Part shown: one piece after another, positions 275 through 22,472 of the stretch
How positions within the stretch are numbered: position 1 is the stretch's first letter
How the letters are laid out: every line of letters begins with the position of its first letter
Assembly: GCA_945867665.1 (NCBI GenBank)
Contig: CAMBIR010000014.1
Location: forward strand, 1 to 37,557
Origin: an uncultured Bacillota bacterium
GTDB lineage: Bacteria > Bacillota_I > Bacilli_A > RF39 > UBA660
Direction: 5' to 3'
Length of the DNA stretch: 37,557 nt
Program-made: the position numbers and the translations under genes
The notes under the pieces: model-generated
What the model saw: the letters and a program-made list of their open reading frames with translations, nothing else
Database searches by the model: none
Told to the model about the DNA's origin: nothing

Positions 275-925
275 TTATTTATGATACTTAAATATATAAC
301 CACCTGTTGTTTTTCTTTTCCCTTTGCATACTCTTGAAATATGTGTCCCAATAATACCTAATTCCTTTTCTATTCTTGATATACTTTCCCAGGTTTTTAT
401 AAAATTTCCATTAATATCATATTGGTCTATTTTTTTCATTAAAGTTTTTCCATAATTTGTTATTTTTCCTTTTTTTGCAAGGCTTATTTTTCTTTTGTGT
501 TCTTCTGTTAGATGTTTCCCATAAGTAGGTGCTAAAATTCCTTTTTTCCCATACATAGGATTTTTATCACCTTTATACATTCCAATTTTTGTTTTACTCA
601 TTTTTTCTTTGCTTTCTTTAGTATGATGGTATCCTACAGTAACTCCACCACCATCACAAGAATTATAACCTTTTGATGGATTAGTTGTATCATATTTTTT
701 TATTAATTCATATTCCTTTTTACACGCTTCTTCTTTTGTTAGATTTTCATACAAAATAATATGTTCAAAATTATCCCACCCGTATTTATCTATTGCATTT
801 TTAAAATGACCATTTTTATATCCTTTTCCTTTTCTCCACCTTTGTTCTGGTTTTTGACAAGTTATTCCTATATATTTTTTTCCATTTACATTATTTATGT
901 GCATATATACGGCAAAGTATTTCAT
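275..925 (-). CDS. GIY-YIG homing endonuclease with C-terminal DNA-binding repeats
   Basis: The N-terminus has the GIY-YIG nuclease core: an early tyrosine, the segment KKYIGIT, a downstream arginine (QRWRKG) and a glutamate/asparagine region ending GYNSCDGGG. Behind it is a lysine-rich NUMOD3-like linker (HTKESKEKMSKTK; HLTEEHKRKIS) and a NUMOD1-like helix-turn-helix (IDQYDINGNFIKTW...GGYIFKYHK). It is a free-standing selfish endonuclease between terL and the portal gene. I start it at the Met at 923-925, behind GGTG; an in-frame Met at 937 is possible. It carries its own promoter (942-970). Confidence 0.9.
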   Translation of the reverse strand: MKYFAVYMHINNVNGKKYIGITCQKPEQRWRKGKGYKNGHFKNAIDKYGWDNFEHIILYENLTKEEACKKEYELIKKYDTTNPSKGYNSCDGGGVTVGYHHTKESKEKMSKTKIGMYKGDKNPMYGKKGILAPTYGKHLTEEHKRKISLAKKGKITNYGKTLMKKIDQYDINGNFIKTWESISRIEKELGIIGTHISRVCKGKRKTTGGYIFKYHK

Positions 926-941
926 AATTATCACCATAATA

Positions 942-3996: not shown

Positions 3997-4557
3997 TCAA
4001 TAAGTCATCTCCTCCTCTCTTAAATATTTAAAAGAATGTCCACATGTTTTTTTAAATTTTCCTTGGCAAACTTCAGTTATATGAGCATTTTTGTTATTTA
4101 GGTCTTTTTTTGCTTCTTTTAATGAATTGTATATTTTATTATCATCTCGTATTATTTTTTTCTTATTAATCTCATGGCAATATTTACAATCGCTATAAGG
4201 AACTTTTAAAACTTCATGCATATGTTTTTTTTGTTCTTTATGAGTTGCCCATTCTAAATTTGAAATTTTATTATTTAATTTATTTCCATCTTTATGATTA
4301 ATGGTTTTTTTATTTAAAGGATTATTAATAAATGTCAAAGCAATAAGTCTGTTTACTCTATATGTTTTTGCAATACCATTTTTTGATAATCTCACTTGAT
4401 AATATCCACTATGATTTTTATTAAATTTTAATACTTTGCCTTTTTGTATATATGAATTAGTTCCATTTTTTCTAACATGGTCTAAACTTCTAATTCTACC
4501 TAGATTACTGGCTTGATATAAGCTTTCATAATTAGGAATGTCTTTCCATAACTCCAT
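3997..4557 (-). CDS. HNH homing endonuclease (NUMOD4 + HNH + NUMOD1-like)
   Basis: A 186-residue protein beginning MELWKDIPNYESLYQASNLG, the NUMOD4 DNA-binding signature. The HNH core follows (TINHKDGNKLNNKISNLEW), with a C-terminal helix-turn-helix-like part (YNSLKEAKKDLNN...GHSFKYL). I chose the Met at 4555-4557, which has AAAGGA upstream. It is a free-standing homing endonuclease between small early genes. Unlike the other four endonucleases here it shows no promoter of its own and only 4 nt separate it from the preceding gene, so it is read with the operon. Confidence 0.88.
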   Translation of the reverse strand: MELWKDIPNYESLYQASNLGRIRSLDHVRKNGTNSYIQKGKVLKFNKNHSGYYQVRLSKNGIAKTYRVNRLIALTFINNPLNKKTINHKDGNKLNNKISNLEWATHKEQKKHMHEVLKVPYSDCKYCHEINKKKIIRDDNKIYNSLKEAKKDLNNKNAHITEVCQGKFKKTCGHSFKYLREEEMTY

Positions 4558-4561
4558 TTTA

Positions 4562-4879
4562 TCAGTCCTTTCTATTTCCATTTCTCATTATTTCCATTAC
4601 TTTTTTACCATCTAATTTAACATCAATTTTTACTGTTGTATTATTCCAACCTAATTCATTTATTTGTTGGTTTATTGCTTGTAATAAAAGCATACTAATA
4701 TCGTTTACATCATCTAAATATACACTTTCCATTTCTTTATCAAATGTAATTGTTTTAGCACCAATAAAACCAAATGTGTCATTATTAAATTTATTTTTTG
4801 AATAAACTATTTGATTATCATTTGTTTCAATATCTAAATACCAACCTAATTCTTCAAATAACTCTCTAGCACTTTTCAT
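4562..4879 (-). CDS. Hypothetical early protein
   Basis: A 105-residue protein starting MKSARELFEELGW. It is a mixed alpha/beta sequence with ITFDKEMESVYLD and a helical part LLQAINQQINELGW. Sequences of this kind are common as unnamed proteins in gut Bacillota phages. No catalytic motif. It sits between two small early genes with a weak ribosome binding site (GGAG, long spacing). Confidence 0.65.
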   Translation of the reverse strand: MKSARELFEELGWYLDIETNDNQIVYSKNKFNNDTFGFIGAKTITFDKEMESVYLDDVNDISMLLLQAINQQINELGWNNTTVKIDVKLDGKKVMEIMRNGNRKD

Positions 4880-9422: not shown

Positions 9423-10199
9423 TTATTCCTCCTTTATATACTTCCAATGTAATTTTTGACCATTATATTTTCCTGCACTTTTTCTTTTTCCTAAACAAAC
9501 TTGTCCTATACCATATTTATCGGCTTTAGTATCTTTTGATGCTAAACTTATACTTTCATAAATTTTATTTGTTTCTATACAAATAACTTTTTTTGAAAAT
9601 CCACCTTTTTTACCTTTACTGCTTTCGCTAATTTTCTTTTTAGTTTCATCTGATAAGTGTTTCCCATAATTTCTATGATTTTTTCCACTATGTGTTTCAC
9701 TTAATCTTTTCCTTAATATAGGATTTTGCATTGCTTTTTTTGTAGCCTCACTAATTTTCTTTTTTTGCTCTTTAGTTCTTTTTTTATTATGTTTTCCTTT
9801 ATTAGATTCGCTTATTTTTTTTCTTGTTTCCAAACTCGCCTTTTTTCCTAAATGAGCAATTCTGTTTTTTTCTTTGCTTTCTTCAGTCGGTTTTACTCCA
9901 ATTGTACCTTCACCGCCTTGTGAAACATTGTAGCCTTTTTGCTTATTAGTGCTATCATATAAAGCTATTAGTTCAATTTCTTTATTGCAGGCTTCATTCT
10001 TGTTTAAATTTTTGTATAATATTTCATGCTTAATATTTTGCCAACCATATTTTTTAATTGCTCTTTTCATTAATGTTTGATGTGCATCATAACCCAAACC
10101 ATTTTTCCATCTTTTTTCGGGTTCTTGTTGTGTTATCCCAATATAAACTTTATTATTAGGAAAAGTATGTTTATATACATAATAATTATGTTCTTCCAA
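9423..10199 (-). CDS. GIY-YIG homing endonuclease with NUMOD3 repeats and NUMOD1
   Basis: 258 residues. GIY-YIG core: YYVYKHTFPNNKVYIGIT, arginine in EKRWKNG, KYGW, and GYNVSQGGEG. A basic stretch follows with three NUMOD3-like repeats (TRKKISESNKGK, QKKKISEATKK, TKKKISESSKGK) and a NUMOD1-like C-terminus (ICIETNKIYESISLASKDT...LHWKYI). It starts at TTG, eight bases after AAAGGAGG. It separates the nuclease-ATPase gene from its SSB partner. It has its own promoter (10316-10344) and a structured leader (10206-10309). Confidence 0.92.
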   Translation of the reverse strand: MEEHNYYVYKHTFPNNKVYIGITQQEPEKRWKNGLGYDAHQTLMKRAIKKYGWQNIKHEILYKNLNKNEACNKEIELIALYDSTNKQKGYNVSQGGEGTIGVKPTEESKEKNRIAHLGKKASLETRKKISESNKGKHNKKRTKEQKKKISEATKKAMQNPILRKRLSETHSGKNHRNYGKHLSDETKKKISESSKGKKGGFSKKVICIETNKIYESISLASKDTKADKYGIGQVCLGKRKSAGKYNGQKLHWKYIKEE

Positions 10200-14899: not shown

Positions 14900-15319
14900 C
14901 TATTGAATTTTTTTTCTAGGATTATTACACTTAAAAATATTCCGCCTATTTGGATTTAACACATAAGAATGTATTTGATTTTCACCATTAGTACACCATT
15001 CTAAATTTTTATAATAATTGTTTAATTTATTTCCATCTAAGTGATTTACTTGTGGTTTATTTTCTGGGTTAGGTATAAATGCTTGTGCTACTAATCTATG
15101 TGCCTTTTTTTCGTAAATTTTATTATCTTTTCTGATAGCATAATGATTATATCCTTTTTTATCAATTCTTGCTTTCAATATTTTTACTTGCTTTCTTAAA
15201 CTCTTAACTCTCCCATAATTTGATATTTTGTATAAATTCTCAAAATTTTCAATATCTTTCCAAATTTCATGTGGTAAATCCTTGACATTTAGCCATATAT
15301 CGCTATTTATTTCCACCAT
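14900..15319 (-). CDS. HNH homing endonuclease (NUMOD4 + HNH)
   Basis: 139 residues from the Met at 15317-15319, behind GGGAGG. NUMOD4 is seen as EIWKDIENFENLYKISNYG, and the HNH core as HRLVAQAFIPNPENKPQVNH then LDGNKLNNYYKNLEWCTNGEN. No C-terminal NUMOD1. It is the last gene of the late region, behind the endolysin, where an insertion does no polar harm. It has its own promoter (15378-15406) and a pseudoknot leader over its ribosome binding site (15326-15372). A longer frame to 15376 would start inside the leader. Confidence 0.9.
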   Translation of the reverse strand: MVEINSDIWLNVKDLPHEIWKDIENFENLYKISNYGRVKSLRKQVKILKARIDKKGYNHYAIRKDNKIYEKKAHRLVAQAFIPNPENKPQVNHLDGNKLNNYYKNLEWCTNGENQIHSYVLNPNRRNIFKCNNPRKKIQ

Positions 15320-15325
15320 AATTGC

Positions 15326-15372
15326 ACCTCCCGAATAAGTGTTAGAGAGAGTAATTCGGGCACTCTCTCTAA
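15326..15372 (-). promoter_or_regulatory. H-type pseudoknot leader overlapping the HNH ribosome binding site
   Basis: In minus-strand RNA UUAGAGAGAGU (15372-15362) pairs with ACUCUCUCUAA (15352-15342): 11 bp, perfect. The 9-nt loop GCCCGAAUU contains CCCGAAU, which pairs perfectly with AUUCGGG (15336-15330) five bases after the stem. The GGG of that strand is the first half of the ribosome binding site GGGAGGUG. Stem and loop lengths (11 bp; 1, 1 and 5 nt linkers; 7 bp) fit a classical pseudoknot, with the 5-nt linker tight. Confidence 0.8.
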
Positions 15373-15377
15373 TCATA

Positions 15378-16248: not shown

Positions 16249-16506
16249 TTAATTCTCCTTGTTTTTAATTGTTTTTACTAAATCGGCAACTCCACCAGCA
16301 CTCATTGTAGCACTTAAACATAATACAAAAGCCTGTAGTAAACTTGTTTCAATTTTGCAGAAATAGCAAATTAAAGCACTAAATACGCCGATTAATACAT
16401 TCTGCATTGGAATATATTTATTTGGCACTTTGGAAACAAATAATTTTGTTATAGCACCAAAAATATAAGTTACAATTCCAATAATTATCATGTAAGTAAT
16501 TTCCAT
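16249..16506 (-). CDS. Holin
   Basis: 85 residues with membrane segments at about 4-24 and 35-70 around a loop (SKVPNKYIPMQN) and a charged C-terminus (LVKTIKNKEN). The layout VSKVPNKYIPxQN...GVFSALICYF...SAGGVADL is that of phage holins in low-GC Gram-positives as I recall them. Directly upstream of the endolysin. Start behind AAAGGAG. A -10-like element (16528-16536) follows the large RNA's terminator. Confidence 0.85.
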   Translation of the reverse strand: MEITYMIIIGIVTYIFGAITKLFVSKVPNKYIPMQNVLIGVFSALICYFCKIETSLLQAFVLCLSATMSAGGVADLVKTIKNKEN

Positions 16507-16527
16507 TTTATCACTCTCCTTTTAAAT

Positions 16528-16536
16528 ATTATAACA
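16528..16536 (-). promoter_or_regulatory. Extended -10 promoter of the lysis genes
   Basis: TGTTATAAT on the minus strand between the terminator of the large RNA and the holin. No good -35 hexamer (TTTTAA at 17 nt). Part of a 15-bp block shared with 32124-32138. Confidence 0.5.
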
Positions 16537-16551
16537 CAAAATAACGCAAAT

Positions 16552-16576
16552 TAAAAAAACAGCCATTTAAGGCTGC
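16552..16576 (-). terminator. Terminator of the large noncoding RNA
   Basis: CAGCC and GGCTG pair around the loop TTAAAT and are followed by seven T on the minus strand. The terminator at 32154-32180 has the same loop and one compensated base pair. Confidence 0.85.
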
Positions 16577-17093
16577 AATTAGTAAAATAGTGTTATAACA
16601 TTTCCAGCCACCTCGCATTTTATCGTGGCAATTAAGCAATGAGCGACATTGCAAGCTAACATTTCATGAAGAGTTCCCTTTCTCTCTGTTATAAGCACCA
16701 TAGAATAGATATAAACTCGACTTTAACGAACTTTTTAAACGACCATACTTAATATGGTATATCTACTCTATGCCACCTATAAAGTGGCTGGTGACAATAG
16801 TCATCCACGGGTTTACTCCTACAAATCTATTTAGTATAACTAAATGCTTCAGAGTAAATAGTGTCTTATAGACACCATATCAAATAAATATAGTTTCTGG
16901 TGCAAGGATACCCTTGATAATCGTTTCCTTTAAATACAAATCGCTTCCCACACTAGATATTGTGTACTTAAATATCTTTACTTGTATTATTATTCACTAA
17001 TCTGCAGTTCGTGAAATTATCAATGTACCGATTATATTTATTTGATATGCTATCTATAAAAGATGGCATAAATATAAATAATATTTAGTAACC
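16552..17093 (-). ncRNA. Large structured noncoding RNA (ROOL/GOLLD-class candidate)
   Basis: About 540 nt with promoter, terminator and no ORF. Helices on the minus strand include a 15-bp stem between 16758-16772 and 16699-16713, whose only imperfect pair is G-U in this strand; TTTACTC/GAGTAAA (16852-16858 with 16812-16818); hairpins GTGTC-GACAC, ATTTAG-CTAAAT, ACCATA-TATGGT, GCAATG-CATTGC; and two separate GCCAC/GTGGC hairpins. Length, density of helices, phage setting and adjacency to a tRNA match ROOL or GOLLD RNAs, which form large homo-oligomeric cages. The match to a named family is inferred from these features, not from a consensus search. It lies between the tRNA-Cys and the lysis genes. 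Confidence 0.65.
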
Positions 17094-17099
17094 AATAAT

Positions 17100-17128
17100 A
17101 TTGTAACATAAAATGAAATTAAAATCAA
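17100..17128 (-). promoter_or_regulatory. Promoter of the large noncoding RNA
   Basis: TTGATT, 17-nt spacer, TACAAT with extended TG, minus strand, starting 4 nt after the tRNA 3' end. Confidence 0.6.
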
Positions 17129-17131
17129 TAT

Positions 17132-17206
17132 TGGAGGACTTGGTGGAGAATTGCACCCACGCTCAAACTTTTGCAGAGTTTTGCCTTTCTACTTGGCTAC
17201 AAGTCC
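17132..17206 (-). tRNA. tRNA-Cys (GCA), degenerate D- and T-loops, CCA encoded
   Basis: Acceptor GGACTTG/CAAGTCC is a perfect 7-bp stem followed by T-CCA. D-stem GCC/GGC, anticodon stem AAACT/AGTTT and loop CTGCAAA give anticodon GCA (Cys). The D-loop AAGTAGAAA lacks the usual GG pair. The T-arm is GTGGG/TCCAC with an 8-nt loop beginning TGC instead of TTC. The elbow contacts 18-55 and 19-56 should therefore be weak. It may be a divergent working tRNA or a mimic. Confidence 0.8.
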
Positions 17207-17229
17207 ATTTAAAGAAGAAATTAATCTTC

Positions 17230-17586
17230 TTATTTAACAATCCAGCAATACTCGGCTTGTCTTTCACGGCAATCGAAACTATCATAAATAACACCATATT
17301 TAGAACAAACAATATGCCCAGTCATTGTTATAAGAATAACATTATCGTTGTATTTTGCAGATACTTCTCCGACCGATAAATTATATGTAGGCACTCTTTC
17401 ATATCGTTCATCTAAAAAATCAAGTATAAAATCTCTATCGTCTAACATAGTTCCTTTTAGCCTTGCTTTGTTGCTTAAATATTGGTATGTATCATCCCAA
17501 CTATTGCCTGTTGCAAGGCTTATTGACCTTATTGCACAATCGTTCTCAAATAAGCCTAAAGCATTGTTATTATAAAATTTATACAT
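17230..17586 (-). CDS. Cysteine-protease-like phage protein
   Basis: 118 residues. NDCAIRSISLATGNSWDDTY places a cysteine (C17) at a helix start in the way of papain-like or C39-like folds. The matching histidine and acidic residue are GHIVC (H91) and VIYDS (D102). I recall similar small proteins near the lysis genes of gut Bacillota phages, with no proven role; peptide release or wall processing is possible. Its ATG overlaps the upstream stop codon (TAATG), so translation is coupled. Confidence 0.6.
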   Translation of the reverse strand: MYKFYNNNALGLFENDCAIRSISLATGNSWDDTYQYLSNKARLKGTMLDDRDFILDFLDERYERVPTYNLSVGEVSAKYNDNVILITMTGHIVCSKYGVIYDSFDCRERQAEYCWIVK

Positions 17587-21773: not shown

Positions 21774-22472
21774 TTAATTTATTTTATAATTAATTTTAGA
21801 CCCTTTTTTTAAATTATCTTTTGCTTTTAATAATTGCAAATTAGTATAATGATTTAATTTTATCAGTTCTTCTTCGGTTTTAGCATATTTTAATGGTTTT
21901 TTATGGTCTATATGTATTGGTTCTATACCATCCCATTCATATCCATAATTATCTTTAAATGTTTGTAATAAATATTTATTAAAATATTCAAAATCGCATC
22001 CTAATATTTCTTGTGTACGTTTACTTTTATATACGCCTTTTTCATTAAAAGCCTTAATAATTAAACTTCTAATCGTTGTTTTTAATTTAAAAATAGGGTC
22101 GTTTTTTCTTTTATTAATTTTATATATTCTATTATACTCTCTGTATTTTTCTTTATTTTTTAAATAGTATTCTTTTTTTGATTTAACTATTCTTTCCTTA
22201 TTTTTTTGATAATATTTTCCCCTTCTTTCAATTTCTTTTTCTATATTGTTTTTTCTATATACAAGGGTTTTCTCTATTATTTCTTTTCTATGATTTAAAT
22301 AATACTTATGTTGTTGCCCTTTTATTTTATCTTTATGTAATTTGTTATATTCTCTCATTCTAGCATTAATACAATCTTTGCAAATGCTATTATAGTTATG
22401 AGTATCTTTTCTTAAACTAAATCTTTCTATTGGCTTTTCTTTTTTACATTTATTACAAATTTTAACATCCAT
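21774..22472 (-). CDS. HNH homing endonuclease with N-terminal zinc ribbon
   Basis: 232 residues. N-terminal zinc knuckles KICNKC and SICKDC (C6, C9, C31, C34) bind DNA in this endonuclease class. A long basic helix follows with repeated YYxKNKE units (GKYYQKNKERI, EYYLKNKEKY). The C-terminal HNH is PIHIDHKKPLK...HYTNLQLLKAKDN. It lies between tail hub and collar genes, both of which are complete, so it is free-standing. It has its own promoter (22488-22516). Confidence 0.88.
   Translation of the reverse strand: MDVKICNKCKKEKPIERFSLRKDTHNYNSICKDCINARMREYNKLHKDKIKGQQHKYYLNHRKEIIEKTLVYRKNNIEKEIERRGKYYQKNKERIVKSKKEYYLKNKEKYREYNRIYKINKRKNDPIFKLKTTIRSLIIKAFNEKGVYKSKRTQEILGCDFEYFNKYLLQTFKDNYGYEWDGIEPIHIDHKKPLKYAKTEEELIKLNHYTNLQLLKAKDNLKKGSKINYKIN

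Follow-up and report, generated by a model that had tools for sequence, protein, structure and literature searches.

The non-coding region behind the tRNA-Cys gene of the window (the whole stretch of 37,557 nucleotides of DNA that was analysed) was found to consist of two tandem copies, A and B, of a module in which a hairpin (HP1) is followed by a long stem (P) enclosing a variable insert, and then by a second hairpin (HP2). Judging from sequence comparison, this anatomy, i.e. a frame of HP1, P and HP2 with co-varying complementary loops and exchangeable inserts, is very probably correct. The best explanation of the whole, to which we would give a probability of about 0.4, is a modular frame that acts as a clamp and presents interchangeable RNA baits or effectors. 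If this is true, a phage non-coding RNA can be a chassis with interchangeable cargo, and not one fold per family. It would also bear on two unexplained facts, namely that phages retain tRNA genes and that large ornate RNAs lie beside them.

The region behind the tRNA-Cys gene

The initial annotation had described a large structured non-coding phage RNA next to a tRNA gene, with about 540 nt free of open reading frames (ORFs), many helices, and its own promoter and terminator. The fold, the absence of ORFs, the phage genes and the tRNA-Cys all agree with such an RNA, and the region carries what appear to be the marks of a stand-alone phage non-coding transcript. The features of the region are as follows.

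17132-17206, minus strand: tRNA-Cys (GCA), upstream of the RNA (ARAGORN and Rfam tRNA model, 50.3 bits)
17100-17128, minus strand: promoter-like TTGATT-N17-TACAAT with extended -10 TG (consensus scan)
16860-17067, minus strand: module A, with HP1, stem P, insert A and HP2 (read from the sequence and from insert homology)
17049-17067, minus strand: HP1 of A, GCCATC-TTTTATA-GATAGC (sequence; row 1 of alignment A2)
17033-17048, minus strand: stem P 5' arm of A, ATATCAAATAAATATA (inverted repeat I1, perfect partner of 16892-16877)
16893-17032, minus strand: insert A, a multi-helix domain of about 140 nt (homologous to the inserts of loci L068 and L109)
16877-16892, minus strand: stem P 3' arm of A (inverted repeat)
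16860-16876, minus strand: HP2 of A, GTGTC-TATAA-GACAC (row 1 of A2; loop complementary to the HP1 loop)
16688-16788, minus strand: module B, with HP1, stem P, insert B and an HP2 remnant (match to covariance model R1 at 16672-16795)
16772-16788, minus strand: HP1 of B, GCCAC-TTTATAG-GTGGC (alignment A2)
16758-16772, minus strand: stem P 5' arm of B, CATAGAGTAGATATA (inverted repeat I2; 15 bp with 16713-16699, single G-U)
16714-16733, minus strand: T-arm-like hairpin, AAGUUCG-UUAAAGU-CGAGUU, at the 3' end of insert B (T-arm scan)
16699-16713, minus strand: stem P 3' arm of B (inverted repeat; R1 match)
16688-16698, minus strand: HP2 remnant of B, GUGC-UUAUAAC kept and closing strand lost (row 2 of A2)
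16559-16576, minus strand: intrinsic terminator GCAGCC..GGCUGU followed by T7, the RNA end

No minus-strand ORF of at least 60 amino acids was present in 16552-17206, and the tRNA-Cys is probably a unit separate from the RNA downstream of it. The minus strand (577 nt) folded at -150.7 kcal/mol, compared with -116.6 +/- 5.9 for shuffled sequences (z -5.8; 0 of 100 shuffles reached this value), far beyond what composition would give. The plus strand of the same region folded almost equally well (z -5.7), and folding energy alone therefore does not decide the strand; the G-U polarity of the module family, described below, does. The predicted terminator was located (one site, 0.3 expected). The candidate promoter, for which transcription would be expected to start near 17093, is also present in the sequence and plausible, but promoter-like sites were not more frequent in the region than by chance (7 found, 7.4 expected in the consensus scan).

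The window is of phage origin, as indicated by genes for terminase, portal, minor head protein, endolysin and holin. The gene downstream of the RNA is the holin (phrog_1299, E 1.9e-6).

Another neighbour of the region, a 118-aa protein encoded upstream of it at 17230-17586 (minus strand), belongs to phrog_3754, whose function is unassigned, and has relatives at 42 IMG/VR loci. The stretch 3' of this gene is highly variable among the loci, being occupied by a tRNA-Cys, a module or unrelated genes, and usually no homology was found between relatives downstream of the conserved gene. At one locus a RAGATH-18 RNA (L064:2906-2966) adjoins a relative of the 118-aa gene. Five further minus-strand ORFs of the window (275-937, 3997-4581, 9423-10199, 14900-15376 and 21774-22472) have, by eye, the look of GIY-YIG or HNH homing endonucleases.

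Two tandem modules

The 15-bp long-range stem with one G-U pair that had been noted earlier is formed exactly by 16772-16758 and 16713-16699, and is the stem P of module B. It is more than a chance repeat because it is the stem P of a strongly covarying module family, in which the single G-U was kept in 36 of 37 modules. The modular, framed-insert layout was thus found in the window; module B matched model R1 with 53.3 bits (E 1.1e-6), being itself among the 37 modules from which R1 was built, and has a degenerate HP2.

The frame of module A scored only 16.6 bits with R1 (filters off). Its membership is supported by the layout of HP1 and HP2 and by an insert nearly identical to the framed inserts of L068 and L109. 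The near identity of insert A with these two inserts extends over the parts outside the helices, and pairing was kept by double changes at 11 of the 61 pairs of the A3 fold (frame and insert), seven of these lying inside the insert. Stem P of module A is perfectly paired, and its sequence is strongly unlike the stem P of L068 and L109. One and the same insert is thus found in more than one frame. A search of IMG/VR for an exact 26-nt stretch of insert A gave the two framed copies, L068 and L109, only, and no relatives of the insert were found in cultured phages.

Extent of the family

BLAST searches of the region against relatives gave mostly AT-rich chance matches; two weak ones, in loci L008 and L018, led to the family. 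Against phages sharing the 118-aa gene a few short matches were obtained, on both arms of the 15-bp stem. No sequence relatives of the whole region were found in cultured phages, where the short module gave only matches with E 0.3 or worse, on Staphylococcus phages.

When IMG/VR was scanned for the 5' arm of stem P alone (pattern TATAGGTRGCATNGAGTAGATA), 61 stretches were found, and all 61 had a matching 3' arm about 50-200 nt downstream. Seven further loci came from metagenome-assembled genomes (MAGs), mostly of rumen and pig-gut Bacilli and Clostridia, and a second type of frame was represented by 34 stretches. In 1.7 Mb of scanned sequence, a length that includes both strands, a structure descriptor recovered about 90 distinct modules, whereas 271 kb of shuffled sequence yielded none. 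The modules are carried by rumen and gut phages and by Bacilli and Clostridia MAGs.

In the family, HP1 is a hairpin of about 6 bp with the loop UUUAUA, joined without linker to stem P. The latter has about 14-16 bp and encloses an insert of 16-245 nt, and HP2, a hairpin of about 5 bp with the loop UAUAA(A), follows its 3' arm.

The modules are intergenic: at 58 of 69 loci there is no ORF of 70 aa with which the overlap exceeds 30 nt. Most flanking genes have the same orientation as the modules. Intrinsic terminators followed the last module at 21 of 70 loci (0.3 expected). For promoters taken in bulk there was no clear enrichment (32 found, 24 expected); a nearly identical extended -10 promoter, TTGC..AAATTAAAGTGATATAAT, resembling in form the candidate of the window, recurs at several loci some 70-125 nt upstream of the modules. 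The modules often have genes for minor head protein, portal, scaffold and terminase as neighbours.

Modules form arrays of up to five. The locus L112 has four modules detected by the model (222-904), one recognised by eye (1-135) and a terminator, and four tRNA genes lie directly upstream of the array on the same contig. A tRNA gene within 300 nt was found at 4 of 71 fetched loci, as against about 2% for random positions, and at a few more on whole contigs; a general adjacency of modules to tRNA genes was rejected on this count.

Covariation and strand polarity

Covariation in related phages, a check named in the initial annotation, was strong in the frame. In an alignment of 37 modules, 97% of pair cells were standard and double changes were seen in 17 of 30 pairs, values that none of 500 shuffles reached. 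Since some of these modules had been selected by a pairing descriptor, the free base in modules found via the 5' arm alone is a cleaner test. This position paired in 52 of 55 modules (A-T in 28, T-A in 24).

The strand polarity was assessed in HP1, where 52 G-U and 3 A-C combinations were counted, both being scored alike. This excess indicates that the selected molecule is the RNA of this strand.

In diverged modules, detected with the covariance model, both loops change and yet stay complementary (UUAAUA/UAUUAA, UAUUAA/UUAAUA, UUUCAA/UUGAAA, UUAAU/AUUAA, UUAUG/CAUAA and others). The model's own alignment has gaps in the diverged loops, and a count made on it gave no information; loops delimited by their hairpins, by hand, were used instead. 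With these, the covariation of the HP1 and HP2 loops in 15 diverged modules gave a permutation p of 5e-5 with G-U pairs and 1.5e-4 with Watson-Crick pairs only.

The frame can also be drawn in an alternative fold, a 25-bp rod that contains the same loop pairs and is 94% paired. A G-G mismatch in the rod (A2 columns 21 and 58) is invariant, being present in 37 of 37 modules. In the two-hairpin fold both of these Gs are normally paired, within HP1 and HP2; in the window they lie at the base of HP1 and HP2 of both modules.

Inserts

The same frame encloses dozens of unrelated inserts; only eight related pairs of inserts were found among 91 modules. Two inserts contain whole tRNA-Trp (CCA) genes (L101:1717-1792 and L108:5856-5931), and matches to the tRNA model span the inserts of L103 (42.4 bits), L123 (28.8), L100 (26.7) and L094 (18.6), stem P serving as the acceptor stem in some of the tRNA-matching inserts. 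T-arms of the tRNA type were detected in 12 of the 91 inserts, where shuffled sequences would predict 0.13; the opposite strand had none. The majority of inserts show no recognisable tRNA likeness. Inside the modules of the window the Rfam tRNA model matched no cloverleaf, and only insert B has a T-arm-like hairpin.

Proposed function and alternatives

In the proposed mechanism, the frame would act as a clamp, fastening the two ends of the insert through pairing either within one molecule or between identical copies. The clamp would stabilise the RNA and offer the insert as a bait or effector that can be exchanged. For tRNA-like inserts, the likeliest target would be host machinery that recognises the tRNA elbow, for example the tRNA nucleases of phage defence or tRNA-handling enzymes, for which the inserts are perhaps decoys. 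The fast turnover of inserts might be due to differences between hosts. A role directed at tRNA would account for only some of the family, because no likeness to tRNA is recognisable in most inserts. A broader proposal, tentative and less probable than the clamp itself, is that gut phages carry a general RNA chassis in which tRNAs, tRNA mimics and numerous further structured RNAs are exchanged as effectors or decoys against hosts, the frame being self-closing or self-assembling.

The main rivals to the clamp are assembly into homo-oligomers, which we consider unlikely, and a conformational switch, which seems more doubtful still. In an assembly, HP1 would kiss HP2 of the next molecule, giving rings, chains or cages in which the insert is displayed or enclosed. 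That the loops of HP1 and HP2 co-vary would be expected if identical copies paired with each other, just as it would if each molecule paired with itself. Head and packaging genes are often found next to modules, and two phages carry both a module and a ROOL RNA. Such bridging would be analogous to phi29 pRNA and to the bridges of ROOL, whose conserved kissing loop proved to be intermolecular (PMC12286853). However, HP2 of module B in the window is without a closing strand, and arrays of several different modules are unlike a single repeated subunit.

The 25-bp rod is nearly as well kept as the two-hairpin kissing form, raising the possibility that the frame works as a switch and not as a clamp. 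It would alternate between the two folds and control processing, transcription or the response to a ligand. Both folds are maintained (97% paired in the kissing form, 94% in the rod) along with the G-G mismatch. However, stem P and the loop pairs are common to the two folds, much of the support for the rod is therefore not independent, and the type of downstream gene is inconsistent.

Unrelated contents between conserved ends, copies that stand both in tandem and scattered, and the occurrence of insert A in two frames might also be expected of a MITE-like mobile DNA element with terminal inverted repeats instead of a functional RNA. This reading is improbable and was judged against on strand polarity, G-U being far above A-C on one strand; in addition, the hairpins and loops co-vary, many copies have terminators, and the modules are sense to the flanking genes at most loci, features that a transposon would not require.

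Whichever role applies, the family comes with a covariance model, about 90 natural combinations of frame and insert, and well-defined mutants (swaps of loops or of inserts), with which roles in RNA stability, assembly or counter-defence are directly testable. A compact natural frame that takes inserts of 16-245 nt could also serve as an RNA scaffold.

Relation to known RNAs

The region had been proposed to be a member, or a new relative, of the ROOL and GOLLD RNAs. Its size, phage origin, neighbouring tRNA-Cys and kissing loops are all as in those RNAs, and the covariance-model search suggested in the initial annotation was carried out with both Rfam models. The ROOL model (RF03087) gave no match in 16400-17260, even at E up to 10, and none in the whole of the window's own genome. 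In each of two related phages that bear modules, the same model detected a true ROOL (L172:1501-2087 on the minus strand and L171:1501-2115 on the plus strand); the two scores were 136 and 131 bits. The GOLLD model (RF02032) likewise gave no match in the region at E up to 10, nor in the window's own genome or the control genomes, a search that has no positive control.

The ROOL identity was therefore refuted on sequence and secondary structure, as the model works elsewhere in the set and is silent here, and descent as a new relative is unsupported by homology, the region being two tandem copies of an unrelated module. In L172 the modules (3263-3051), nine tRNAs (2818-2096) and the ROOL (2087-1501) follow one another on one strand. 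Since ROOL and modules are separate RNAs within one genome, ROOL can be a neighbour of the module RNA but is not the module RNA. Even a diverged member of either family is highly improbable, given tandem small modules in place of one 600-nt fold.

The modules resemble ROOL in being phage-encoded, of similar total length and without ORFs, in having kissing loops, and in the possibility of lying in the same island, as in L172. ROOL itself assembles into an octameric cage made of RNA only. The modules differ in that ROOL is one continuous fold of about 600 nt, whereas the module family has a frame of about 70 nt repeated around unrelated inserts. GOLLD is also phage-encoded and found near tRNA islands (PMC12286853), as the modules may be, but differs in architecture and in the absence of a model match (again with no positive control).

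Some inserts are tRNAs (RF00005), or have a D-arm and a T-arm with stem P as the acceptor stem. Unlike a tRNA, however, the module has an acceptor stem about 8 bp longer, capped by HP1 and HP2, and many inserts are not tRNA-like.

Bacterial Y RNA (YrlA), which acts with Ro60, combines a long conserved stem with an interchangeable module that mimics tRNA. The modules share this plan but had no Rfam match to it, and no Ro60 gene was found. TROVE/Ro60 genes were absent from all 28 genomes and records searched (the host genome and 27 phage contigs), while the control was positive in Deinobacterium, making a Ro60/Y RNA system unlikely; this candidate was rejected.

In phi29 pRNA, two hairpins with complementary loops lie at a three-way junction. 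The complementary-loop hairpin pair of the modules is similar, but there was no Rfam match, module copies stand in tandem with unrelated inserts, and their location varies.

With all 4227 models of Rfam 15, only tRNA was found in the window, at gathering scores and also at permissive E-values, and the module loci gave only tRNA and unrelated neighbouring RNAs. The literature search found nothing resembling the module, the 2017 catalogue of 224 candidate RNAs being compared only through Rfam; Rfam 14 states that 253 families were taken in from the database of the group behind that catalogue. Judged from these limited searches of Rfam and the literature, the architecture, a conserved frame with interchangeable contents, appears to be new.

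Two other structured RNAs were observed beside modules. Skipping-rope RNA (RF02924) is structured and has a pseudoknot (PMC7779021); it is a separate RNA with a fold other than that of the module. A copy (L094:3656-3739) immediately precedes a module, from which it is separated by a run of T. Between minor head and scaffold genes, a GP20-b RNA (RF03003; L008:1250-1313) is found at a distance of about 35 nt from a module.
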